From the NCBI GenBank assembly GCA_021325075.1, contig JAJPHX010000041.1, forward strand, positions 1 through 32,883: 32,883 nt of DNA, given 5' to 3'. Below the pieces are notes generated by a model. That model worked only from the letters and a program-made list of their open reading frames with translations, was not told where the DNA came from and did not search any database. Positions within the stretch are counted from its first letter, which is position 1, and every line of letters begins with the position of its first letter. The DNA is from Nitrososphaeraceae archaeon (GTDB lineage: Archaea; Thermoproteota; Nitrososphaeria; Nitrososphaerales; Nitrososphaeraceae). A program made the translations under genes and the position numbers. This document shows positions 7,360-20,881 of the stretch, in pieces.

Positions 7360-8157
7360 CTAATTCCACTGCACCTGCCAGAGCGGTTCCGGCGCAGCAG
7401 GGTTTTCCAGCTTTTGCAAATATTGGTAGCCGCATTCGTCAAGCACGTATTCAAAATCGTAGCGGCCTGCCGGCTCTTTTTCAACCTGCTTTTTGATTGC
7501 TTCCCTGATAGCATTGCTCTTGTGCGGCCTGCAATACACGTACCAGAGGTTGTGCGCGCCTCTCAACTTGGCTAGTCTCCCGCGCTTGTCCTCCGGCATC
7601 TTTGTGTAATGCCTGTTCATGACCTCGGTGTTGACATCCTCCCATGAGGGAGTCCTCCACCATGCAACTTTCTCAAAGCCATGGCCGTCAAATTCTGCGG
7701 CCAGGCTGATCCCCTGATCAAGCGTCGTGACAATGACATCTGTGCTTTTCGCCACCGCATCGCGAAAGTCCTGTCCCGGCTCCATCCACCCGACAAAGAT
7801 CAGGTCGTACTTCCTGTCTATCCAGTGCGCGTCAGATACCGTGATATAGTCAGGCTTTTCCGTGCCAAGGCCGTAGAAAATCCCCGCGTCCTTTTCGATG
7901 CCCTGCGCGTCTGGAAGGAACTCCCTGATTCTTTTCAAAAAGTCGCCGTAGCCGCAGCCGACATCAAGGTAGCTCGGGCTTGGCGCTATTGACTTGGCGA
8001 TTGCGGCAACTCGCAATACATCGACCTTGCGGTAGGCAAAGTACGTCCCCCTAAAGAATGGAAAGCTGTAGCGCTCGTGGTGCGGAGATTTTGCATTTGC
8101 CCGGAACTGCGCCAGAGCCTGCCTTGCCTTTTGCAGATCGTCGAGGTTGAACGGCAT
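7360..8157 (-). CDS. SAM-dependent methyltransferase-like protein (paralogue 1)
   Basis: 265 aa with YLDVGCGYGDFLKRIREFLP (motif I) and FVGWMEPGQDF; closely similar to the upstream ORF. Confidence 0.75.
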   Translation of the reverse strand: MPFNLDDLQKARQALAQFRANAKSPHHERYSFPFFRGTYFAYRKVDVLRVAAIAKSIAPSPSYLDVGCGYGDFLKRIREFLPDAQGIEKDAGIFYGLGTEKPDYITVSDAHWIDRKYDLIFVGWMEPGQDFRDAVAKSTDVIVTTLDQGISLAAEFDGHGFEKVAWWRTPSWEDVNTEVMNRHYTKMPEDKRGRLAKLRGAHNLWYVYCRPHKSNAIREAIKKQVEKEPAGRYDFEYVLDECGYQYLQKLENPAAPEPLWQVQWN

Positions 8158-8969
8158 CAGTCAAACCTTGCTTCCCACAGCTTTTTGCTGTTTGTCAGGG
8201 CGGGCAGCTCCTCCATGTAGCGAAAGCCGCATTCGTCAAGCACGTCTTCAAAGTCAAACCTCTGGCCGGGTTCCTCCTTTTCAAGCCACGACTGCAAAGC
8301 TGATTTTACCCTGCCTGCAATTTCCGGCTTGGCGTAAACGTACCAAAAGTTGTGCGCCGTGCGAAGCTTGGCTAGCTGTTCCTTTTTTGCAGGATCAAGC
8401 CCAGGCGTGTAGTAGCGGTTCATGAGCTCTGCGTTGATGTCTATCCAAGATGGCGTTCTCCACCACGCGACCCTCTCAAATCCAAACTCGTCGTACTCGC
8501 ACCCCCCGTTGATGCCGCACTGGCCGCCTGCGTCAAAAGTGGTGATCACACATTTCGCACTCTTTGCAACAAACCTCCTGAAATCCTGCCCCGGCTCCAT
8601 CCATCCGACAAAGGCGACGTCGACCGGCGTCAAGCTTTCGACCGGCGTCAGGTCGATATAGTCAGGCTTTGCAACCTGAAACGCGTAAAAAATGCCTCCT
8701 TCCTTTTCTATCCCCGTCGCGCCGGGCAGGTAACCGCGTATTTTTTTCAAAAAGTCGCCGTAGCCGCAGCCCACGTCGACATAGCTTGGGTTGTCCGCAA
8801 CGGATTTTGCTAATGCCGCCACGCGAAGCACATCGATCTTGCGGTAGGCGAAATAAGAGCCGGCGAAAAACGGAAAGATATACCGGGCATGGTGAAGCGG
8901 CGGGCCGCGGGCCAAGAACTGGCGATAAGCTTGGTGGGCGCTCTGCAGCTTTTGGATCGCGAAAGGCAT
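8157..8969 (-). CDS. SAM-dependent methyltransferase-like protein (paralogue 2)
   Basis: YVDVGCGYGDFLKKIRGYLPGATGIEKE, FVGWMEPGQDF. The paralogue's MPFNLDD supports MPFAIQK (8969) as the start rather than 8987. The stop overlaps the downstream start (ATGA). Confidence 0.75.
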   Translation of the reverse strand: MPFAIQKLQSAHQAYRQFLARGPPLHHARYIFPFFAGSYFAYRKIDVLRVAALAKSVADNPSYVDVGCGYGDFLKKIRGYLPGATGIEKEGGIFYAFQVAKPDYIDLTPVESLTPVDVAFVGWMEPGQDFRRFVAKSAKCVITTFDAGGQCGINGGCEYDEFGFERVAWWRTPSWIDINAELMNRYYTPGLDPAKKEQLAKLRTAHNFWYVYAKPEIAGRVKSALQSWLEKEEPGQRFDFEDVLDECGFRYMEELPALTNSKKLWEARFD

Positions 8970-9207
8970 GCAGATCCGTACTTGCAATCCCTATATTTTT
9001 ACTGCGTTGCGAAAACCGTCACGGTTGTATATAACGGCGTTTGCAAAAACCCAGCTTTGTTAAATAACTCGATTTTGAAGGTGACTTTTTTAACAGAATA
9101 CCGATTATTTTAACAAAAATGTTCTATGGGCAGAATTGACCTTTTTGCTGGTCGAAGGTGCGGCGGGGAAAATAGTGCTGCTGCACAAATGATCGAATTT
9201 GCTTATT

Positions 9208-10428
9208 TTACGGTTTGCTTCGAACTACCAAAATCCTCTTAATAACTCTTAGTCCAAAAGAACTGAATAATAGCAACAGATAGCTCGCAATAACTATCTC
9301 ACTCTCTATTTCGAGGGTATGAGCACGCGCCTCCAATGGGCTGGCGCGAAAGTGCCAAGAAGTAATTCCATTTATTATCATATTTTGTATTTGTCGATCA
9401 TATTCTGGATCTATTTGTGGAATAGTATTAATTAACAATCTCGCTGAATGCAAGAACAAGATAGGGCTTAATCCAATTATTATAAGTCGGAAAAATTCAT
9501 ATCTCGATATGGGAGTTGAAACCGATCTAGCGGTGTGCTTCAATTTCAGAAAAAGAAAGATTCCTATTAGACTTATGGATCCTAATATGTAAATGCCTAG
9601 TCCAATGGCATACCAAATTTCCAAAATATCAAATATTGGAGTCATGCCGACGATCAGTTTATTCAAAGCAATTATCGTGGCACCGCTCCAACTAAACATG
9701 GGATTCAATATGGTGCTAAGATTAAGAGTAAAGAACCCGATAAAAAAGACCAAACAATATCCAATAGAGACCCGATTAGTCAGAACTGATGAATCATTAT
9801 TCGCAGGCATGTAATTAACAGTCTTTGTCAATACCCTTGTAGTCCTTGATGCCCACGCGTTTGGTAATCTTGGGGAAGTAATTTTGCTAAAAACGCTTAC
9901 AATCCCACTTAGGTGCCCAAGTCTATAAGCAAGAACGAAAGTTGTGATAAGATATGAAACAGATAATATTGTGCTAAGAATTCGTTGCTCTACAGTTATC
10001 CCAAGAAATAGCTGAAGGGAGTCGAAATTCTCCACTCCAGCTGGCCAATATTCAGGTCCTGAATTGGCAAAGATAGCCAAGAATAGTCCTGAGCGGCCTA
10101 ATACCATAAAAGGAGAAAAACCAACTAGAGTAAGTAAGACCTTCTCAAGTAGTCTATTATCTCTAGTTCTAGGAGGATAATTGATGAAATTATTTCCGAA
10201 AGTTCCCAATGCTATTATTGCAGACAGGATGAAAATGACGAAGGCAAGTGCATACCATGGTTCACGTAATTCGAATGGATCTGAACCATTGTGTGATAAC
10301 TGAACGAATGCCTCGCCAACGGCATAGGTCCAGTCATATGGATAGTGTGCTAGAAAGAAAATTGTGATTGAGAAAGTAGCTGTAAACAGTCCAAAACAAT
10401 ATGCTAGTAACCAGATCCTACGAACCAT
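9208..10428 (-). CDS. polytopic membrane protein of unknown function
   Basis: 406-aa ORF with many hydrophobic segments (LLAYCFGLFTATFSITIFFLAHY, ALAFVIFILSAIIALGTF, YCLVFFIGFFTLNLS, GIYILGSISLIGIFLFL). A/T-rich accessory codon usage. Confidence 0.8.
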   Translation of the reverse strand: MVRRIWLLAYCFGLFTATFSITIFFLAHYPYDWTYAVGEAFVQLSHNGSDPFELREPWYALAFVIFILSAIIALGTFGNNFINYPPRTRDNRLLEKVLLTLVGFSPFMVLGRSGLFLAIFANSGPEYWPAGVENFDSLQLFLGITVEQRILSTILSVSYLITTFVLAYRLGHLSGIVSVFSKITSPRLPNAWASRTTRVLTKTVNYMPANNDSSVLTNRVSIGYCLVFFIGFFTLNLSTILNPMFSWSGATIIALNKLIVGMTPIFDILEIWYAIGLGIYILGSISLIGIFLFLKLKHTARSVSTPISRYEFFRLIIIGLSPILFLHSARLLINTIPQIDPEYDRQIQNMIINGITSWHFRASPLEARAHTLEIESEIVIASYLLLLFSSFGLRVIKRILVVRSKP

Positions 10429-10523
10429 TCCTTTATCCTACCATGTCATGGTCGCATTATTAAGGAAGTATTTTGAGAAAGTGCGGCGAGTGAGGCTGCT
10501 GCAAATGACCAATTTATCATTGG

Positions 10524-10736
10524 TTAGATATTTTCGCTCTGAAGTTTGAAATACTTGGAATATTCTTCCTCCAACAATTTTTGATTATGACAGACAAGAT
10601 GTGAATAGCCCCGTCGTTTGATGCTTCCAGACTGCTTATCGATGACATGCATTGAAGCATACTCTTCTTTATCAAGATTGAATTCACTGTTGCAGATTTC
10701 GCATTTGACAATACGAGGCGCTGCGGGGCGATACAT
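10524..10736 (-). CDS. small zinc-binding protein
   Basis: 70 aa: IVKCEICNSEFNLDKEEYASMHVIDKQSGSIKRRGYSHLVCHNQ (CxxC...CxN). Confidence 0.6.
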   Translation of the reverse strand: MYRPAAPRIVKCEICNSEFNLDKEEYASMHVIDKQSGSIKRRGYSHLVCHNQKLLEEEYSKYFKLQSENI

Positions 10737-10849
10737 GATGAGCTATCTTTGCATGACAGGGTATTAGCTTAAAAAGATTAGCTTAAGCTATCTTATTTTT
10801 GAAGCAATTGATAGTATAAGGTCTAGAGGGACGGAGAAGAGATTTAAAT

Positions 10850-10872
10850 AAAGTAATACTAAAGTAATACTA
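10850..10872 (+). repeat. two abutting 11-bp direct repeats AAAGTAATACT ending at the start codon
   Basis: aaagtaatactaaagtaatacta, immediately before ATG 10872 and just downstream of a TATA-like tttaaata. Confidence 0.8.
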
Positions 10873-11057
10873 TGGGGGTAAAAAAGGCCAAATCTGCTGA
10901 AAGGTCTTTTGTTCTCAGACTTCCTGAAGAACATGCAGCGGCATTAGAGGGCTTGGTTAAAGCAGGATTGGCAAAATCCACTAATGATCTTGTTGTTAGG
11001 ATTATAGCGTCTTTTCTTAAAGATATGAAGAGGAAAGCAGAAGATGCCAAGCGATAA
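10872..11057 (+). CDS. small ribbon-helix-helix-like protein
   Basis: 61 aa: KSAERSFVLRLPEEHAAALEGLVKAGLAKSTNDLVVRIIASFLKDMKRK, a beta strand plus two helices as in RHH proteins; leaderless-type start. Confidence 0.6.
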   Translation: MGVKKAKSAERSFVLRLPEEHAAALEGLVKAGLAKSTNDLVVRIIASFLKDMKRKAEDAKR

Positions 11058-11241
11058 TGAAGGTTCAGCTCTTGGTGCATTAATAGGACTTGGAATAGCT
11101 TTGCTAGGAGCAGTTGTCGTTGCCTCAATAATTGACGACGCCACAAAGAAAAGAAAGTGGATATGTCCTGATTGCGGAGCCGAACTTCGGCAGGGAGTTG
11201 TCAAGTGCCCTAATTGTGGTATAAGGCTAAGGTGGGCTTGA
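11044..11241 (+). CDS. small membrane-anchored zinc-ribbon protein
   Basis: 65 aa: ALIGLGIALLGAVVVASII transmembrane stretch followed by CPDCGAELRQGVVKCPNCG; overlaps the preceding ORF. Confidence 0.7.
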   Translation: MPSDNEGSALGALIGLGIALLGAVVVASIIDDATKKRKWICPDCGAELRQGVVKCPNCGIRLRWA

Positions 11242-11248
11242 TAGCATA

Positions 11249-11269
11249 TTAGTATGATTATGATACTAA
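11249..11269 (+). promoter_or_regulatory. inverted repeat TTAGTAT-N7-ATACTAA upstream of a TATA-like element
   Basis: ttagtatgattatgatactaa (7-bp arms), followed by cttaaata at 11273-11280 and ATG at 11304. Confidence 0.55.
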
Positions 11270-11303
11270 AATCTTAAATAGCTGACATCCATTGCTATAG
11301 GTA

Positions 11304-11504
11304 ATGGCACAGCAAATAGTGCTTGAAAAGGAAAGGAAAAGACGCAAGTCTGCAGCCGAATTTTTACAATGGCTAGAATCAATAGGCGGTATCTTCGTTG
11401 CGATTGCTGAATTATTGAAATTTATTGGATGGACTATCATTAGAATTGCTCAGTTTATTCGCAATGTCATGGGATTAAATGATTGGAGGGAGCAATACAC
11501 ATGA
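11304..11504 (+). CDS. small hydrophobic/amphipathic protein
   Basis: 66 aa with [27 protein letters not shown]; the stop overlaps the next ATG (ATGA at 11501). Confidence 0.6.
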
Positions 11505-11869
11505 CACTTTACTATCCGCCCACTAGGCGATCATATGATTGGAATGAGGTCATTAACATGGTATTGCAATTACCAAAACATACTGATCTGAGAATGGAAG
11601 ACTGGATGGTACCGTTTCCTACTGAAGCAGGCTTTACCGAAAGACCTGCTGATCAAGATGGGCAGTCTGCTGATTATGGGATCAAGGTGAGGGATGGAAG
11701 GGCAATTCATGTCAAAGTATACGAAGGTTTCTACAAGGTTCATTGGGATGCACGTGACCCTATTACAGACCCGATTGGTCATTTGATATATGATGCAACA
11801 CATTGGATTGTCTTTGGTGCATTTGCAGCAGTGATATTGTATTCAATATTCAAGACATCAAGACGATAG
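11501..11869 (+). CDS. small protein with C-terminal transmembrane helix
   Basis: From ATG 11501 (preceded by ggaggg): [23 protein letters not shown]...[22 protein letters not shown]. Confidence 0.7.
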
Positions 11870-11941
11870 CATCCTTGGCGGGCGAAAATAACTGAAGGCA
11901 TTGATAATTTTTGTCATTTGGACATATGCAGATTGCGGGAT

Positions 11942-14900
11942 ATGTCACAGAATAACTCCGAATTATTTATCTATGACATTCTTTATCGCCTAATTAGGCA
12001 AATGTCGTGTCCCCATTTCGTTGAAGGAAAGTGCAAAGTCATTAGCAACATTCCGCCGAAGGGATTCATAGAAGAATATTGTAATAGCGATGAAGATCAC
12101 TATGGAAGGTGCCCTCATTACGTCTTACGACAAAAAGCTGAGAACAAAGCCTTTGATCTTAGGCTTCAAACTGCGGGTTCCAAATATACGCGCCTAGCTG
12201 AAATGAATCTTGTATCAGTAATCAACGGCGTAGTTCGTCATATGATGCGCTTCATCGATAAGTGTGAAAGTTGCAAGGCAGCTCAGGCAAGTACCGCTTT
12301 GGATAAAGGAAGATTATGCAACGTACACGAATTTTATTTGCAAAAGACTGTCTACATGTTACAGGAAGTACATGGTTTCAATAATAAATCCCCTACTCCA
12401 TTCAGACCTATACAGCATGGACCTGTAAGTGACGAAGTGAATCGCCTTGCAACACGACAGAAACCAATAACATCTTGGGCAGATTCGAAAATTGATGCTG
12501 CGGCACTGGAAGGCATTGAGAAAGGTATGTTCGACCAGCTTGTAATTAGATACGTGAATATGCCCTACAAACAACTCGAGACCCTCACAAGTGTAATTTA
12601 TGAAAAATCGGCGGCAAAACCGGAGCTTCCAGGCATCATTGAACAAATAAAAGAAAAATACAAGGAACAAGATGCGTTTGATAGCGAGGTAAAGCTTTTT
12701 GCCAATCCACTAAAGAAAGCCCTTGACGGAATCAAGGGAACTTTTGAAACAGTTGAACCGCTTCCAGTTGGAAGTTCTGGAATCCTTATCAAATTGAAGG
12801 AAAAACATCTTGCTGGCCAGGCAGGAAATGCCATTTATAGTGTCATGAAATTCCCTAGACCACGAGGTGGTGCATTTCGAATAGCTAATTTACAAATAAT
12901 CAAGGAAGAAGCTGATTTGTTATCCAGCTTGAATCACGACAGAATTGTAAAGGTCATTATGGCTGGAGAAACTGAATACGAAGGGCTACAATTGCCTTGG
13001 TACATTATGGAGTTTATTGGTCCCTCAAAGGATCTAGGTGGCTACTTGCAGACAATCAAGGAGAAAGGCCTAAGTCTTGCAACTTTTACGAGCATTATAA
13101 CAGATATTGCTTCAGCTCTTTCGTATTTGCATCAAAGCAAGATTGTGCACTGTGACATTAAGATGGACAACATTCTGATAAAGATGGATAATGACCACCC
13201 AATAGGCATGTTGACTGACTTAGGTTATGCACGTGCAAAAGACGGAGATCAGGAGGAAATAATAGCCATTAGGTTCGATGATGCAAATGCCCATCCATTT
13301 TTGAAGAAAAAACTTGTGAAATCATCTGACCCGGCTGCAGTTACTGCTAAAATTGCAAGGAAGGAGTTGGACTTTAGATTCGACTTGCACGCTCTTGGAA
13401 AAACCATACAATCAATGTTTGCTGTAGTGGATGGCAAAATAATTGATAGCAAAAGCCAAGAGTCCGTCGAGACTAGTTACGATTACAGATACTTGAACTT
13501 GCTAATGGCTCGGTTGATCTACTCAGGAGCATATCCCACAATAGATGATAAACCTAACGACCTTCCTTCGTTAAATAGACATTTCCAAGGACTGGATCAT
13601 GATGCTATGCGGGAGCTTGCATATGACTCTTCTAAGGATATGTATGAGGATCTTCTCAAACTCAGTGGGATCAGCCTTGAATCTTGGATACCAGAGCTAA
13701 ATCCCTTCGCACCGGATGTAATTTCTCTCGGTGCCAAAGAAACCAGAGTCGTCTTGACCAAAAGACTACTCAGGATACTAGAACATCCTGACTTTGACCG
13801 ACTTGGATCAATTAGTCAGCTTGGTCTGATAAATTTCGTATATCCTAGTGCTAAGCATACCCGATTTGAACATGCACTAGGTACGTATGCTCATGCATGC
13901 GAATACATTAGAAGCCTTTGGTATAACACCAACGATCCATTATTCAGATCAATAGTTCGCAAGAAGGACTTATACTCAATTATGCTTGCATCTTTACTGC
14001 ATGATTTAGGGTACTATCCAATGGCTCACGACCTAGAGGATTGCTCCAAATGGCGAACCTCGAATATTAAGCATGAAATTTTTAGTTGCAAGATAATATC
14101 CGAGGAAATGGCTACACAAATCCAAAACGACTGGCAACTCAATTCTGAAGAAGTAAATAAGATAATATGTGGTGACACGAATTCAATTGTAGGAAAAATC
14201 CTTCACTCTATTATTAGTGGACCAATTGATGCAGACAAACTTGATTATTTACTTAGAGATGGAATGCATCTCGGCTTGCCCTTTCCAGAGGGGATTGACA
14301 AGCAATGGTTGTTGAGGAATCTCACAATAGCATATGGGGAGTCGATAGTACCCGCGTTGGCAGTGACGAGCAAGGGAAAGGTCACAGCCGAATCACTAGC
14401 TACAGTTAGATTTGACATGTTTACCGTTGCATATTGGCACCATACTATTAGAGCAATAAAGACAATGTTAAGATATGCAGTTGATAGGCTCGATGCGGCG
14501 AAGAAATATGATGAAAATGAGTTCTATGATTGGGTACGTACCCTTCCATACGTAAAACCGAATTTTGAATTGGTAGAGAACGCCAGAAAAGGTATCATGT
14601 ACACCGATTATCTACTATTGTGCTGGCTAAGGGATAAGCTGGACAGTGAAGGTAAAGTAATGATCGATATGATCTTACAACGAAAATTATTCAAGAGGAT
14701 ATTAGTTCTAGATAGTACTAAGGAAGACACCCAAGCAATTCATACGCATCTTATCAAAGCGCAAGATTCTGACATCGAACGAATGCGTATAGATCTTGAA
14801 TCGAAGATCCGTGACGTTCTCGTTGGTACGAGTATAAAAAATATCGCTGACATTAAGCCCTTGGTTCTTATTGATGTGCCAAGGTCTCAAGCAGATCCGA

Positions 14901-15121
14901 ATCCACTTTATGCGGTAACTGAAATGGGATGCAATCCGATGTCCCAGAACTCAGTAGTATGGAAGGAGCTTGTTGAGAAGTTTTCGCAAACTGTTGAATC
15001 AGTTAGGGTTTTTGTTCACCCAGATATTGTACATACTCTCGAATCCGCCTTGCCCAACAAGGAGTTAGTGAAAATGCTTCAACAAGTTGTTCAGTCTCCT
15101 AGAGGATATAGGCGTCAATGA
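11942..15121 (+). CDS. multidomain protein: Cys-rich/Panacea-like N-terminus, Ser/Thr protein kinase domain, SAMHD1/dGTPase-like HD phosphohydrolase domain
   Basis: Kinase: VMKFPR (Lys), EEADLL (Glu), YLHQSKIVHCDIKMDNILI (catalytic loop), MLTDLGYAR (DFG-equivalent). HD: KHTRFEHALGTYAH, ASLLHDLGYYPMAH, GPIDADKLDYLLRDGMHLG. N-terminus: CPHFVEGKC...C...CPHYV and KTVYMLQEVHGF...FRPIQHGPVSDEV. The ORF track starts at TTG 11918; ATG 11942 is likelier. Confidence 0.88.
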   Translation: MSQNNSELFIYDILYRLIRQMSCPHFVEGKCKVISNIPPKGFIEEYCNSDEDHYGRCPHYVLRQKAENKAFDLRLQTAGSKYTRLAEMNLVSVINGVVRHMMRFIDKCESCKAAQASTALDKGRLCNVHEFYLQKTVYMLQEVHGFNNKSPTPFRPIQHGPVSDEVNRLATRQKPITSWADSKIDAAALEGIEKGMFDQLVIRYVNMPYKQLETLTSVIYEKSAAKPELPGIIEQIKEKYKEQDAFDSEVKLFANPLKKALDGIKGTFETVEPLPVGSSGILIKLKEKHLAGQAGNAIYSVMKFPRPRGGAFRIANLQIIKEEADLLSSLNHDRIVKVIMAGETEYEGLQLPWYIMEFIGPSKDLGGYLQTIKEKGLSLATFTSIITDIASALSYLHQSKIVHCDIKMDNILIKMDNDHPIGMLTDLGYARAKDGDQEEIIAIRFDDANAHPFLKKKLVKSSDPAAVTAKIARKELDFRFDLHALGKTIQSMFAVVDGKIIDSKSQESVETSYDYRYLNLLMARLIYSGAYPTIDDKPNDLPSLNRHFQGLDHDAMRELAYDSSKDMYEDLLKLSGISLESWIPELNPFAPDVISLGAKETRVVLTKRLLRILEHPDFDRLGSISQLGLINFVYPSAKHTRFEHALGTYAHACEYIRSLWYNTNDPLFRSIVRKKDLYSIMLASLLHDLGYYPMAHDLEDCSKWRTSNIKHEIFSCKIISEEMATQIQNDWQLNSEEVNKIICGDTNSIVGKILHSIISGPIDADKLDYLLRDGMHLGLPFPEGIDKQWLLRNLTIAYGESIVPALAVTSKGKVTAESLATVRFDMFTVAYWHHTIRAIKTMLRYAVDRLDAAKKYDENEFYDWVRTLPYVKPNFELVENARKGIMYTDYLLLCWLRDKLDSEGKVMIDMILQRKLFKRILVLDSTKEDTQAIHTHLIKAQDSDIERMRIDLESKIRDVLVGTSIKNIADIKPLVLIDVPRSQADPNPLYAVTEMGCNPMSQNSVVWKELVEKFSQTVESVRVFVHPDIVHTLESALPNKELVKMLQQVVQSPRGYRRQ

Positions 15122-15160
15122 GTATTTACGATAAAAATAAGCGCCCAAACTCTATCATAA

Positions 15161-16225
15161 TTAGATATCTTGTTCAAACTTTGGATTAACTCCAAGTTCC
15201 TGCATCTCCTGAATTACCACGCATATGTTATGACAAAGTATCTTCAAAAGTACTTCATTCAGCTGTGCTACCTTATCTTTGCTTCTTATATTATCCTTGA
15301 ACTTGGACTTGATCATGTGAAATACAGTTTCACAATTAGAACGTTGGTGATAGTGTTTCATGAAATCATCTTGGTTTAACATAAAGTAGTGATACATCTT
15401 TCTCCATGCGTTTGAGCCATTTGCATTTTGTACTGCATTCTTTCTAAAGGGAATGAAGGGCGTTGCTCCTAGCATGTCAACAAATCGATAATTGGCGCGG
15501 CTAGAATATGCCTTGTCGGCAAGAACCTCTTGAATGTCAAAACTCTTGGCTGTTTTTTCAACTAATGGAGGCAAGAAGTGAACGTCATTACGATTTTCTT
15601 CTGACAACTGAACTGCTGTAATAATGCCTGTTTTCACTCCGCAGATTATGTGCGCCTTGATCCAAGTGCGATACTTTGTGTCTTTTCCATGCTTGAAATC
15701 GAAATATCTTGCAAAGCGTGATGTCGAAAATCCACTGCTATCTACGGCAAAGTTCTTTTCTACAGTCCTCAGCGGTAGGCTGCTTATTGTTATCAGATCA
15801 TCTAATATTGGCATCAACTCTGGCTTTCTCATAAAGTTGCTAATTGACACATATGTGCAGGATGTTTGGATGTAACCTTCGGCCATTGCTTTTTGCATTG
15901 AAGCCATAAAGCGGCGTAATGAAAAGCCCGTGTAGGTCCGAAGTGCTGAAGCAAAAATCATATCAGCAATAGACAAACGCGGCCGACCACGTTCATACAG
16001 CGGCTGCTCTACAGTAGCGCAAATATCTGTTAGTATTTTCATGAATGTCAATTGCTCTGAGCATTTGGCTTCATTGTAAGCCTTCCAATCTTGGGAATAT
16101 GATCGTCTTTCTTTAGCAACATATGCTGTCAATTTTGTTTGCCCCCATTTCAGCTTGGGTAATGGAATTCGCTTTTTCCTCCGCTTTTTTGATAGGGTGA
16201 GCGATCGAGTTGTCATTTGTACCAC
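15161..16225 (-). mobile_element. DDE transposase of an IS5/IS4-type insertion sequence (CDS; element ends not resolved)
   Basis: 354 aa: FAVDSSGF (D), VLADKAYSSRANY (D), RSNCETVFHMIKSKFKDNIRSK (E); YERGRPRLSIADMIFASALRTYTGFSLRR. Confidence 0.88.
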
Positions 16226-16251
16226 GACTTCTGTCAGCAGAGCCTATGCCC

Positions 16252-16335
16252 ATTACCATTATACCACATTACCATATGTGGAATTGGTATAAGTAGTTTG
16301 TGGTAAATACCGCCAACTTTATTTACCATTATACC
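16252..16335. repeat. cluster of TTACCATTATACC direct repeats and ccacat/atgtgg inverted repeats
   Basis: ttaccattatacc occurs at 16253-16265 and 16323-16335; ccacat-taccat-atgtgg lies between; attaccat also at 16268. Confidence 0.6.
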
Positions 16336-16348
16336 TGATATTTGCTTT

Positions 16349-16507
16349 ATGAGCAAAAGTCGTGAGAAGGCCAAGACTTCTATAAACATTGACAAGCAGA
16401 CATGGCAGGACTGGATCAAGTACGTTGTAAATAAGACAGGTTCGGCGAGGAAGGTTAGTGAGGAGACAGAGAAGGCTATTCTAGAGTATATGAAAAAGCA
16501 TCCATAA
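16349..16507 (+). CDS. short ribbon-helix-helix-like protein (52 aa, below the ORF-track cutoff)
   Basis: MSKSREKAKTSINIDKQTWQDWIKYVVNKTGSARKVSEETEKAILEYMKKHP*, a strand-helix-helix pattern. Confidence 0.6.
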   Translation: MSKSREKAKTSINIDKQTWQDWIKYVVNKTGSARKVSEETEKAILEYMKKHP

Positions 16508-16537
16508 GATGATAAGGCTTTTATATATGATACATGC

Positions 16538-16572
16538 ATGTATAACTAGGATGTATGACATCAATGTATAAC
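16538..16572 (+). repeat. iteron-like array: three ATGTATRAC repeats at exact 13-bp spacing
   Basis: atgtataac at 16538, atgtatgac at 16551, atgtataac at 16564. Confidence 0.7.
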
Positions 16573-16588
16573 ATAAATGTTGTCGTTA

Positions 16589-16612
16589 TAGTATCACTTC
16601 TTAGTGATACTA
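16589..16612. promoter_or_regulatory. perfect inverted repeat tagtatcact-tctt-agtgatacta
   Basis: 10-bp arms separated by 4 nt, just upstream of ORF 16650. Confidence 0.7.
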
Positions 16613-16649
16613 GTAGGAAAAAGTACGGCGTTTATCGAAGGAGGAAATA

Positions 16650-17153
16650 TTGAAAATGCCACCTTTGAGAGTCCCAGACAATGTGAAGCTGATAGGAAAA
16701 GAGAAGGTGCTCAAAATGCCGCCGCAAGACCGAGAAAGGTATTATGAAAAAGTCATTCTTGATATCTTGCTTGCCAACAGAGAGGGTGCCACAGCAAACG
16801 AGATTTCCACCAATACAGGTTTTGCGGAACGGACTATCAAGGTTCACTTGGACAAACTGGCTGCACGTGGTGAAGCATACGCTGTATCAAGGGGCGGAGC
16901 TGCGTTCTACTTTGCGCGTGGACTTTCACAAGAAAAGGCTTTGACCATAAAATCAAAAACGAAGGAAGGGCTGTACTATGTCATAACAAACCTGAAAAGT
17001 GCAGATGGTGACTTTTTCTATATCCAGCAAAAGGAGCTTGACGAATATCGAGCTTTGCGAGTAAAAGGTGCAATAATGATAGCAAAAGCTGATGGACAGG
17101 ACTTTATAAAGCAGTTCCATACTCATATGGCTAAGGAGCTAGAACGGGAATGA
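16650..17153 (+). CDS. winged-helix/HTH DNA-binding protein
   Basis: 167 aa: VILDILLANREGATANEISTNTGFAERTIKVHLDKLAARGEAYAVSRGGAAFYFARG; the stop overlaps the next ATG (17150). Confidence 0.7.
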   Translation: MKMPPLRVPDNVKLIGKEKVLKMPPQDRERYYEKVILDILLANREGATANEISTNTGFAERTIKVHLDKLAARGEAYAVSRGGAAFYFARGLSQEKALTIKSKTKEGLYYVITNLKSADGDFFYIQQKELDEYRALRVKGAIMIAKADGQDFIKQFHTHMAKELERE

Positions 17154-17656
17154 CCAAGCTTTCCTTCAGCAAGACAGATTCCGATGGTGTCGTTAGTACT
17201 GGCAGGCTTATCATAGGCGATATTGTAATTGAAACGCCCGCGGTCTTCCCAGCTGTGCGAACCACCCAAGCTCCAAATGAGTTAGAGCTCCTGATCAATG
17301 AGAAGGGCAAATACATGCTAGAGCATGTAAACGGCGCAGTTCTCAGGCTTTATCATGTTCCCACATTGATTGAACCAAACACTGCAAGACTTGCAGCAGA
17401 AGAGCGGCAGCGGCAAGGACAAAAAACAATCGATGGTGCACCCATTCCTAGAAGCCCATACGGTACTTTCTACAATGACAGCCTGCCTATTTGCGATCCC
17501 TGTCTTGAATATACAAAAATCCTTAATTCAGAAATGGATAAGCGGATGGCTCGTGTGGAAGCAGTGCCAGTACTTCATACATATTTTGCACAGTTTGAGC
17601 GAAACAAGAACCTGCTAGAGAACCCTGATGACAAAGCGATACGTACGCTACGCTAG
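17150..17656 (+). CDS. TGT-like protein, N-terminal part (interrupted by an in-frame TAG)
   Basis: TGRLIIGDIVIETPAVFPAVRTTQAP...VNGAVLRLYHVPTLIEP resembles the start of tRNA-guanine transglycosylases (compare GRLETPHGVVETPAFVPVV of the TGT at 24346-25842). The TGT catalytic SDSGGFQ is not seen. Confidence 0.5.
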   Translation: MTKLSFSKTDSDGVVSTGRLIIGDIVIETPAVFPAVRTTQAPNELELLINEKGKYMLEHVNGAVLRLYHVPTLIEPNTARLAAEERQRQGQKTIDGAPIPRSPYGTFYNDSLPICDPCLEYTKILNSEMDKRMARVEAVPVLHTYFAQFERNKNLLENPDDKAIRTLR

Positions 17657-17659
17657 GCA

Positions 17660-18487
17660 ATGTATAACAATCTTTGGTTTGGCTCAAGCAAAGAAGCAAG
17701 AAAAGACAGAGATAGGATGCTAACTGACTTGACAAAGTATCAGCTTCAACACTTCCGCATATCCCTGCCCGGCGTACACATTGTTGAAACAATGGATGAT
17801 CTCAAAAGCTGTCTTGAGATTAACGACTTCTGTCAGACTTTGGCATACCAGGCGGAAAAAGAGCGCGTGACATACCTGCTATTCCATAGAAAAGCGATAA
17901 AGGATTCTGACATAATGGACAAAGCAATAGAATACCTACGCGAGAACAAACAATCGAAACTGAATGTCATTAAATTCAAAGACCTGGACCTGCACTGTCC
18001 TGTAGATTATAAGGCAAGAACTGCATTCAGGCGTTTCCTAGCAGACATAAACAGTATCAAAGAGGAGCAAAAAGATAGAGCATTCATGATGTTAGAAGCT
18101 GGAACGCAGTACTATGTATCGATGCAAGTCTTTGACATTGTCTCGACCACACTGACAGGCTTTGATCGTGACATTACTGGGGGCAAGAGAGAAGAGGGAA
18201 AGAAATACTATCCTCTATGGTACGATGAGGCAAAGATGTGGCCTAGACCCACAGACGATGCGCCAAAACCACACCCCGAACACTGTCATGTATGCGCAGA
18301 AACACAGAGTTTTGACAACCTTGATGACGATACAGTGGCGCGCAGGAAAAGATTACACCGGTTGAATGACCTAAGCAAAGACGCCAAAACGCTCTGTGAA
18401 GCAGTAACTGCAAAAGATGCAGCCCTGATTATGAAGCAGAGAGTAGCTTTTGCCGAGTTCTCTTATGCTAGAGACTTGATTTTTTAG
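17660..18487 (+). CDS. continuation of the interrupted TGT-like ORF, C-terminal part
   Basis: 275-aa ORF in the same frame as 17150-17656, beginning one codon after its TAG; contains HPEHCHVCAETQ. Confidence 0.55.
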   Translation: MYNNLWFGSSKEARKDRDRMLTDLTKYQLQHFRISLPGVHIVETMDDLKSCLEINDFCQTLAYQAEKERVTYLLFHRKAIKDSDIMDKAIEYLRENKQSKLNVIKFKDLDLHCPVDYKARTAFRRFLADINSIKEEQKDRAFMMLEAGTQYYVSMQVFDIVSTTLTGFDRDITGGKREEGKKYYPLWYDEAKMWPRPTDDAPKPHPEHCHVCAETQSFDNLDDDTVARRKRLHRLNDLSKDAKTLCEAVTAKDAALIMKQRVAFAEFSYARDLIF

Positions 18488-18600
18488 CTTTAGCCCATCT
18501 TTCTTTTTCTTAAATCGCATTATCACATCCAAAACATCATTACCCGATAACTCGATAGAACCAATTTTCCCTTTTCAATCAAGTTTTTCTACAAGTCTGC

Positions 18601-19389
18601 ATGATGCAACATAGGCAGACGATGACGTATATCATGTATGTTGACGAAAGCTACGATTCGAGTCGTAAGTTCGTTATTCTAGCGGGTTTCATAATTCCCC
18701 TGAAATTTTGGCATAAATTAGATAATGATTTGAAGCATCTAAAGCAGGAGTTTTTCCTTGACCGGCACATCAATCTGAAACACCTCCGAAGGCACAAGTA
18801 CGATGCGCATGGGCTTTGGGAAAAGTTATCAGAGAAACAAAAATGTGATTTTGATGATAAGTTATGGGGGATAATTGCGGCTCCTGAAAATACTGCCATT
18901 GTTGCGGTTATTAACAGGGAAAAAATGGAGAAGGACGATAAAAGCCTCCTCTTCTATCTGCCCTATAGTTTCATTCTTGAAAGATACGAATACTTCCTCA
19001 GTGAAAATCATACTATGGGGATTGTCATCATGGATAGGGCGAATAACAGCATGGAGATAAAGGATTTGTACTATTCTCATCGCAAGTTCCTGCGTGGTGG
19101 GATAGCAGTCAAGAAACTACCCGACCCTCCTATGAAAGGAAATATGATAAGGCTTGGTAAAAGCTACCAATACAAGCAGTTAACTCATGTATGTGAAGGA
19201 CTGGGATTCATGGACGATGATGATAGTAACTTCTTGCAGATAGCTGATCGTATTGCCTCCGCAGTCTCAAGCAAATTTAATCAAAATATCAACAAATGGT
19301 ATGACAGGTTGGAACCCATACTAAGAAAGGGTGATGATGGTAAGCCTGATGGCTATGGTTTGAAACTATTTCCATCGCCCGACACTTGA
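18601..19389 (+). CDS. DUF3800-family protein
   Basis: MTYIMYVDESYDSSRKFVILAGFIIPLKFWHKLDNDL...IVIMDRANN...LTHVCEGLGFMDDDDSNFLQIADRIASAV, matching the YVDES...ILAGFI...QIAD pattern. Confidence 0.8.
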   Translation: MMQHRQTMTYIMYVDESYDSSRKFVILAGFIIPLKFWHKLDNDLKHLKQEFFLDRHINLKHLRRHKYDAHGLWEKLSEKQKCDFDDKLWGIIAAPENTAIVAVINREKMEKDDKSLLFYLPYSFILERYEYFLSENHTMGIVIMDRANNSMEIKDLYYSHRKFLRGGIAVKKLPDPPMKGNMIRLGKSYQYKQLTHVCEGLGFMDDDDSNFLQIADRIASAVSSKFNQNINKWYDRLEPILRKGDDGKPDGYGLKLFPSPDT

Positions 19390-19392
19390 CAG

Positions 19393-19424
19393 CCCAAGAA
19401 TTGCGACACTGGTAATTCTTAGGG
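19393..19424. terminator. possible bidirectional hairpin between convergent genes
   Basis: cccaagaatt-gcgacactggt-aattctt-a-ggg: 7-bp arms plus 3 bp across a bulge, between DUF3800 (+) and the secreted protein (-). Confidence 0.3.
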
Positions 19425-19449
19425 TGTTTCTCCCAATAAGGCATTGATT

Positions 19450-20037
19450 CTAGACACAGCCGATGCTCCCATGAGTATGGTCAATACTCGTTGATAGAAT
19501 ATCAGTATCATCACAATCTACAATGAGCACTCCGTTATCCAATATGAACCCCGTCTTGTTATCAAAGTCGCCTAATGCATACAACGTGCCATCAGTTGGA
19601 ATAAGAATTGCACCGCGATTTACAAAGTGACCGCTAGCAGCAATATTTGTGAATGTTGTACCCGTAGCAATTTGACCATGAATTGTATTTCTTATGAAAT
19701 TGTAATTATCAAAGGTGCCATGACTTAGAATAAGTCCCTTATTGATGATATTGCCACTGTTCTGAAAGTCTGAAGTAAGTATTAGCGCATTACCAGTAGG
19801 AATTTCTAGTGTCAAGCCCAGAGTAAGAGTAAAGCTATTCACGGTGCAACTATGGAACTCCCTTGAATCAAGCGGGTAGTCAACTCGTTTCCAGTTTCCA
19901 CCAAAAAAGATACAACTCGTCTTGTTAAGCTTGATAAAAGTATCAGCGTAAGCTTGTTGTGCCAGCTGAGCGGGAAATAATAATAACATGAATAAGCTTA
20001 ATCCAACCATGTATGATAGTGCTGGTCGGTTAACCAT
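19450..20037 (-). CDS. secreted beta-repeat protein of unknown function
   Basis: 195 aa with signal peptide (LSYMVGLSLFMLLLFPAQLAQQAYA) and Asn/Gly-rich repeats (FQNSGNIINKGLI...FDNYNFIRN...GHFVNRGAI...FDNKTGFILDNGVL). Confidence 0.7.
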   Translation of the reverse strand: MVNRPALSYMVGLSLFMLLLFPAQLAQQAYADTFIKLNKTSCIFFGGNWKRVDYPLDSREFHSCTVNSFTLTLGLTLEIPTGNALILTSDFQNSGNIINKGLILSHGTFDNYNFIRNTIHGQIATGTTFTNIAASGHFVNRGAILIPTDGTLYALGDFDNKTGFILDNGVLIVDCDDTDILSTSIDHTHGSIGCV

Positions 20038-20160
20038 AACCGAAGGTAGAATCTACTATTAGTTAAGTATTCTTTAGAATTAGCAATAACAGCATCTACC
20101 ATGCGACTTGAACATTCAAGTTTAGACATGCAAACAATGGACAGTTTAGGTTTATGAAGC

Positions 20161-20724
20161 TCAGCGTAGTTTCAGTTGGATAAGTTTAAGCTCCCGATTC
20201 AATATTGAGTACGTTTTTGTAAAGTCGGTTGTCTCGTTCACGATATACTCTTCAATTGCGGGCCAGTTCATTTCATAATACCATTGAGCCATATTTGCTG
20301 CTCGTCCTGACTTTCCCAATAATCTCTGATATCCCTTGAATGATCCGTTATTTGCAATTACCAGAACATGCTTTAGGTCAATCATCGGCCTATGTCCAAG
20401 CTTCAAACCTTCAAGACCACAATATTGCTTAAGCTTGTATTTCATGAACTTGCATTCAAATGCCAAGTTATTGCCAACTGGAATAAACGCCCAAATCCCA
20501 TTATCAAGGAATATTTTCTTGAACATCTCAACTATTGCTCTTTCTGATGAGCCAGGCTCCCATTCTTTCAGAATTACTAGCTGCGCGCTCGCCGCACCAT
20601 CAAGCATCTGATATTGTATTGAAATGATCTTTGATTTGCAAGGGTCAAAGCTTGCGCCCGCATCATTGCGGTATTCGTCTAAGGGTACTGTTTCGATGTC
20701 GAAATAGTAGAGCGGCAAGCACAT
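20161..20724 (-). CDS. DEDD/RNase H-fold 3'-5' exonuclease-like protein
   Basis: 187 aa: LYYFDIETVPLDEY (Exo I DIE), IPVGNNLAFECKFMKYKL (NxxFE, Exo II-like), RPMIDLKHVLVIANNGSFKGYQRLLG. Confidence 0.65.
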   Translation of the reverse strand: MCLPLYYFDIETVPLDEYRNDAGASFDPCKSKIISIQYQMLDGAASAQLVILKEWEPGSSERAIVEMFKKIFLDNGIWAFIPVGNNLAFECKFMKYKLKQYCGLEGLKLGHRPMIDLKHVLVIANNGSFKGYQRLLGKSGRAANMAQWYYEMNWPAIEEYIVNETTDFTKTYSILNRELKLIQLKLR

Positions 20725-20881
20725 GGAGCATGATTACACTTGTATTTTAGCTTGAAAAAACGATTGATGTCGAGAAGCTGAATTATTTAACAGCGGAATT
20801 CGTTTTTTAACATAACGGCGTTGTTTAACAAAGCTCAAAAACCCAAAACGCTTATTAAGTTCGGTATCGCCAACTGGTGGT

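Follow-up and report, generated by a model that had tools for sequence, protein, structure and literature searches.

Of the described proteins that come closest to the one reported here, SAMHD1 is an HD hydrolase that is phosphorylated by separate kinases, none of them fused to it. The Clover system consists of CloA, a proven antiphage dGTPase with the metal ligands H69, H117-D118 and D242 and the dyad H126/E129, and of the nucleotidyltransferase CloB, and its control is ascribed to dTTP and the CloB-made p3diT, the word kinase being absent from the paper (PMC12265719). Panacea (DUF4065/PF13274), in turn, is an antitoxin domain (PMC8832971).

In the 32,883 nucleotides of DNA from a Nitrososphaeraceae archaeon that were analysed here (the window), one gene codes for a protein (P0001) that unites a kinase, an HD hydrolase of the SAMHD1 superfamily and a cysteine-containing N-terminus in one intact chain. 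With Clover it has in common an HD hydrolase with a dedicated controller and the same HD and H-x2-E arrangement, the ligands of the H...HD...D pattern being intact (H644, H687-D688, D765) and, together with the dyad H696/E699, spaced as in CloA (PMC12265719). However, the kinase of P0001 resides in the same chain, whereas the controllers of Clover are nucleotide signals, and among the island ORFs scanned no CloB-type nucleotidyltransferase partner was identified. Enzymes of the SAMHD1/EF1143/ZK177.8 type (COG1078-like) belong to the same HD superfamily, and their metal ligands, catalytic His and DxDKxDY-x2-RD signature are kept in P0001 and its fused relatives; the fusions differ in placing the HD domain behind a kinase and in two residue positions described below. 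Profiles of the antiphage kinases PD-T4-6, MAD6, Stk2 and MkoA match the kinase domain of P0001, but these matches are confined to this domain and leave the HD uncovered, and those to the PD-T4-6 and MADS kinases do not span the whole length of the system's kinase.

A preliminary description of this DNA knew of no system with such an architecture, and no account of a kinase-HD combination was found in the literature searched. Taken singly, both domains are familiar; what appears to be new is their combination, together with its single origin, the marker residues and the mobile carriers.

Architecture of the fusion protein

The gene, the parts of its product and the ORFs preceding it are the following:

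10872-11869, + strand: four small ORFs, overlapping or tightly spaced, that immediately precede the fusion gene (10872-11057; a zinc ribbon, 11044-11241; 11304-11504; 11501-11869)
11942-15121, + strand: kinase-HD fusion gene, a single uninterrupted frame which, read from the ATG at 11942, gives 1059 aa
11993-12304, + strand: cysteine-containing module, residues 18-121, with C23, C31, C47 and a CxxC at 107-110 and with an archaeal homologue
12317-12664, + strand: putative, weakly Panacea(DUF4065)-like segment, residues ~126-241, by collinear landmarks and a weak profile match
12737-13540, + strand: protein kinase domain, residues ~266-533, by Pfam, the five-member alignment and Foldseek of a low-confidence model
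13745-14530, + strand: HD hydrolase domain, residues ~602-863, by Pfam, PDB search by sequence, the five-member alignment and a profile search
14531-15118, + strand: C-terminal part, residues ~864-1059, common to all fusion members in the alignment

At its base composition a frame as long as that of the fusion gene would arise by chance with a probability of about 6e-32, and all kinase and HD motifs quoted in the preliminary description are present in it. Its true start is uncertain, since a TTG lies upstream in the open frame (11918) and Met21 (12002) aligns with the start of a short homologue from a different archaeal lineage within the phylum (L190). In the window the fusion gene closes a series of small, tightly spaced genes that share its strand, and with the four upstream ORFs it possibly forms one operon. 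Of 70 genomes of the family, 46 have a counterpart of the protein encoded at 11501-11869 or of its C-terminal part, and those in G227 and G327 are near full-length relatives.

The eukaryotic-like kinase signature is complete, comprising the VAIK Lys (K303), the alphaC Glu (E323), the HxD residues H403/D405, N410 and D426 of the DLG motif, and these residues as well as K407 are invariant across the five fusions found (see below). Residues 318-437 match the Pfam Pkinase model (E = 4.3e-16, 59.5 bits versus a curated cut-off of 31.7), the domain matches PknB of NCBIfam (3.5e-16), the middle region matches kinases in a PDB sequence search, and Foldseek with the full-length predicted structure, a model of low confidence (pLDDT 51), likewise led to protein kinases. 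The PADLOC defence-kinase models PD-T4-6 and mad6 also match this domain, yet such matches do not discriminate, as their strengths are of the same order as those to general kinases.

For the HD part, Pfam returned HD (PF01966) at residues 641-752 (E = 3.4e-5, 24.5 bits versus a curated cut-off of 22) and HD_assoc_2 (PF19276) at residues 785-863 (E = 1e-10, 41.9 bits versus 23.1). A PDB sequence search with the second half of P0001 led to the HD phosphohydrolases 2q14, 2hek, 2o6i, ZK177.8 and SAMHD1, and a profile built from the five fusion HD domains found 2q14 at 1.4e-33 and SAMHD1 at 8.5e-18. Matches in Pfam and to PDB sequences thus agree with the earlier reading of a kinase and a SAMHD1-type HD in one chain, and the contrary outcome, a protein related to neither kinases nor HD enzymes, was looked for in both and did not occur.

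Residues R641, H644, H687, D688, H696, H711, D765, K766, D768, Y769, R772, D773, Y831, H833 and R837 are invariant across the five fusions, and one of them (L084) has no acidic residue at the +3 position of the dyad. The site of SAMHD1 H210, following HDxG, is occupied by Tyr (Y691) in P0001 and by Gln in the other four fusions, as opposed to His in 53 of 53 standalone HD loci compared (some of them redundant), and the SH that precedes the catalytic dyad of standalone HDs has become AH or GH in every fusion. With both of these canonical SAMHD1/COG1078-type features absent, the fusion HDs would, judged by sequence, constitute a distinct subfamily of the SAMHD1 superfamily rather than canonical members. 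Because the H210-site His is replaced in all five, substrate, activity or rate may differ from those of SAMHD1. Of the earlier label 'SAMHD1/dGTPase-like HD', superfamily membership and metal ligands could be upheld, but not the near-invariant His, which gives way to Gln or Tyr in all fusions found.

Residues 1 to ~215 occur in the archaeal copy alone and are absent from all four relatives, and the N-terminus is therefore not part of the family core; among plasmids, in the PDB and among viral sequences no relative of it was found. Residues 18-121 are 30% identical to their counterpart in L190 (E = 5e-13), and the cysteines listed above are common to both proteins, C57 not being shared. What had been described as paired CPH-x-C motifs proved to be CPH-x5-C and C-x9-CPH. 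As to the proposed Panacea-like character of the N-terminus, the landmarks LQK...HGPV...L..LT of the segment at residues ~126-241 do follow the Panacea order, and with a profile of nine Panacea proteins the segment outscored 200 shuffles, yet its E-value is 0.045, hhalign gives a weak match (E = 0.0045, probability 8%), Pfam searches of it gave no Panacea (PF13274) match, and the segment is missing from the four relatives. In L190 (7630-10132) the homologue of the cysteine module is encoded by a short and apparently truncated ORF; some 1.4 kb away lies an MNT-HEPN toxin-antitoxin-like pair, a naming read from the sequence, with nucleotidyltransferase-type PADLOC matches for MNT.

The island carrying the fusion gene

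In the assembly (1.58 Mb in 195 contigs), whose gene content points to an archaeon and probably to Nitrososphaeria, the fusion gene lies in a region of about 40% GC (roughly 9 to 21 kb), as compared to 51-55% outside. When aligned to two complete genomes of the same genus (G324 and G323), the window diverges near 9053 and rejoins at 20836, which is a single site in these relatives, and the flanking genes are contiguous there, i.e., the site is empty. The following features were delimited:

9044-9052, no strand: left copy of a 9-bp target duplication, CAAAAACCC
9053-20835, no strand: transposon-like island of 11,783 bp, defined by the empty site in G324 and G323, terminal inverted repeats (TIR) and target site duplication (TSD)
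9053-9064, no strand: left terminal inverted repeat, AGCTTTGTTAAA, with more TTTAACA motifs at 9089 and 9109
15161-16225, - strand: IS5-family DDE transposase, of which the genome has one copy
18601-19389, + strand: DUF3800 protein, island cargo (Pfam E = 1.5e-13; weak match to PADLOC PDC-M04A, E = 1e-4)
20824-20835, no strand: right terminal inverted repeat, TTTAACAAAGCT, with more TTTAACA motifs at 20786 and 20806
20836-20844, no strand: right copy of the target duplication, CAAAAACCC

The inverted repeats extend over 12 bp perfectly and over 25 bp imperfectly, and TTTAACA occurs three times per terminal 150 bp as opposed to once in the interior. Taken together, the 12-bp repeats, the 9-bp direct repeat and the empty site identify 9053-20835 as a transposon-like island, which is present as a single copy in the assembly according to a search by its left-end pattern. 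The transposase may be the mover of the island; terminal repeats of its own were not found nearby.

Two adjacent ORFs of 168 and 275 aa lie at 17150-18487, the former without significant match in Pfam, NCBIfam or PHROG and the latter without relative in the 69 other genomes of the family; an impression by eye that they are tRNA-guanine-transglycosylase-like is supported by no profile and was dismissed. Just within the right end (20161-20724, - strand) there is a fragment of a DnaQ-like 3'-5' exonuclease that resembles the N-terminal region of bifunctional exonuclease/DNA polymerases (NCBIfam E = 9e-7). Adjoining the insertion point, tandem duplicate methyltransferase-like genes (7360-8987, - strand) form a pair that is kept in the genus.

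Relatives of the fusion protein

The 69 other genomes of the family yielded weak kinase matches and no fusion, and a search of the phylum revealed, besides P0001, standalone HD genes only, with such relatives being near-universal (279 of 300 genomes). With P0001 alone as query, no fusion was found among plasmids, phages and viral contigs. An alignment of two sequences, P0001 and the HD protein of Thermomicrobium roseum, used as query brought up an 866-aa kinase-HD protein on a viral contig (L079, E = 5e-94), and further searches for viral members led to this contig again and to no other. From a scan of 85,462 species three more fusions emerged, in Phycisphaerales (L084), Verrucomicrobia (L085) and Acidobacteria (L086), to be read as at least three because the scan used exact kinase peptides.

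The matches of these four relatives begin between residues 216 and 263 of P0001 and extend to the C-terminal region, with 32-34% identity to P0001 and with the catalytic residues of both domains invariant in all five. Every member has kinase, HD and C-terminal part in a single chain, and these can be aligned from end to end; in Pfam, kinase and HD-associated region are recognised in all four relatives and the HD model exceeds its cut-off in three, L079 falling just below. The search for the same architecture, as suggested in the preliminary description, has shown the kinase-HD pair to be conserved in five distant proteins. Given four independent full-length relatives and the precise TIR/TSD junctions, P0001 is unlikely to be a chance fusion or an assembly artefact.

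In a maximum-likelihood tree of HD domains the five fusion HDs form one clade (100/99), which is adjoined by the standalone HD of Thermomicrobium roseum (95/96), and a single clade with archaeal, Planctomycetota, Verrucomicrobiota and Acidobacteriota members implies horizontal transfer. The archaeon's own standalone HD (L002) falls elsewhere in the tree. The fusion as a housekeeping gene was rejected, the standalone HD of the phylum being a separate and distant protein of which the same genome has one; the outcome that all homologues are housekeeping genes located outside islands was specifically looked for and did not occur.

Two of the five fusion copies are carried by mobile elements, and the expected mobile location was thereby borne out by the TIR/TSD island of the archaeon and by the phage contig of L079, where the gene is flanked by those for a terminase of the gpA type and a portal protein of the lambda type and runs on the strand opposite to them. 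Such a place and orientation, between head genes and on the opposite strand, is typical of phage cargo genes. The copy of L085 is located among ordinary genes, the contig of L086 comprises only 4.9 kb, and the copy of L084 starts 14 bp after a gene for an ImmA/IrrE peptidase, whose best PADLOC match is CapP (E = 1.9e-13), with RmrA as another close match.

Standalone HD genes on five plasmid or phage records have no kinase annotated adjoining them. On a Roseibium plasmid (L045, 267-3886), genes for a radical SAM protein, a 3'-5' exonuclease, an AAA ATPase and a standalone HD hydrolase form a compact run, possibly a defence-type operon. A standalone HD hydrolase gene of Klebsiella that lies between SDR and DJ-1/PfpI-type genes is shared by a plasmid, a phage record and a viral contig (L044, L048, L060), the HD region being identical in L044 and L060.

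Possible modes of action

That both active sites are conserved argues that kinase and HD both work, and the invariance of the metal ligands and the catalytic His over five distant proteins favours retained HD catalysis. The most parsimonious model takes the HD hydrolase as effector and the kinase as its regulator in cis; here we infer not only that the protein is catalytically active but also its substrate, its trigger, the direction in which it is regulated and its antiviral role. The substrates of the HD domain would be (deoxy)nucleoside triphosphates or closely related compounds, and the kinase, in response to a cue of stress or infection, would phosphorylate its own chain or a partner and so switch the hydrolase on or off. 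Depletion of nucleotides might then stall the replication of a virus or mobile element, or the cell itself, with the cysteine-containing module of the archaeal copy probably adding a sensing or restraining step. As a reading of the sequence, a (d)NTP hydrolase gated by its own kinase and acting as a mobile-element-borne stress or antiviral effector is quite conceivable, if short of probable. In its favour we also count the CloA-like spacing of the ligands, the single clade of the fusion HDs, the mobile carriers, the CapP-like peptidase gene preceding the L084 copy and the MNT-HEPN pair near the L190 homologue; against it stand the replaced H210-site His, the L084 dyad lacking its acidic residue and the ordinary neighbours of L085.

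The main rival reverses the roles: the HD pocket would bind and sense a nucleotide, e.g., an infection-altered dNTP, and switch the kinase, which would phosphorylate host targets and thereby arrest growth. It is kept alive by the altered H210 site, changed in every fusion as a sensing pocket might be, and accords with the allosteric control that nucleotides can exert on dNTPases (CloA, PMC12265719) as well as with the antiphage kinases included in PADLOC (PD-T4-6, Stk2, mad6), a broad group which the P0001 kinase matches; however, the invariant metal ligands and catalytic His speak against a mere sensor, and we consider this version somewhat unlikely. The same substitutions, i.e., Gln or Tyr where all standalone loci compared have His, and AH or GH for SH, would also fit an HD that hydrolyses a signalling nucleotide, a modified nucleotide or another phosphoester instead of dNTPs, but D765, K766, Y769 and D773, which we take to match D311, K312, Y315 and D319 of SAMHD1, are kept in all five, and such a substrate seems distinctly improbable.

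Finally, the protein might be a mobile regulator of metabolism or stress, serving nucleotide-pool homeostasis or signalling without antiviral role, for which transposon and phage were general carriers. The ordinary surroundings of the L085 copy are consistent with this, and the near-universal standalone HDs of the phylum indicate a domain family that is not defence-specific; the rare, patchy and phylum-hopping distribution of the fusion clade and the share of copies on mobile elements point the other way, and we regard it as unlikely.

If the HD domain is indeed an effector under its own kinase, a nucleotide-destroying immune enzyme and its controlling kinase would be one polypeptide, and control by phosphorylation could be tested in one purified protein, unlike in SAMHD1 with its separate kinases or in CloA with its nucleotide signals. 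The fusions would then join the HD-hydrolase effectors with a dedicated regulator, a categorically new mechanism being possible, and provide a new candidate antiviral component for an archaeal lineage whose defences are still little mapped. A bolder and rather doubtful extension is a one-protein immune switch, in which a remodelled SAMHD1-like hydrolase tethered to its kinase was spread among archaea, bacteria and phage by mobile elements and fitted with lineage-specific front sensors, here cysteine-containing and possibly Panacea-like, restraining a toxic core in cis. For finding further members, HDxG[QY]Y-x2-[AG]H can serve as marker motif of the fusions.
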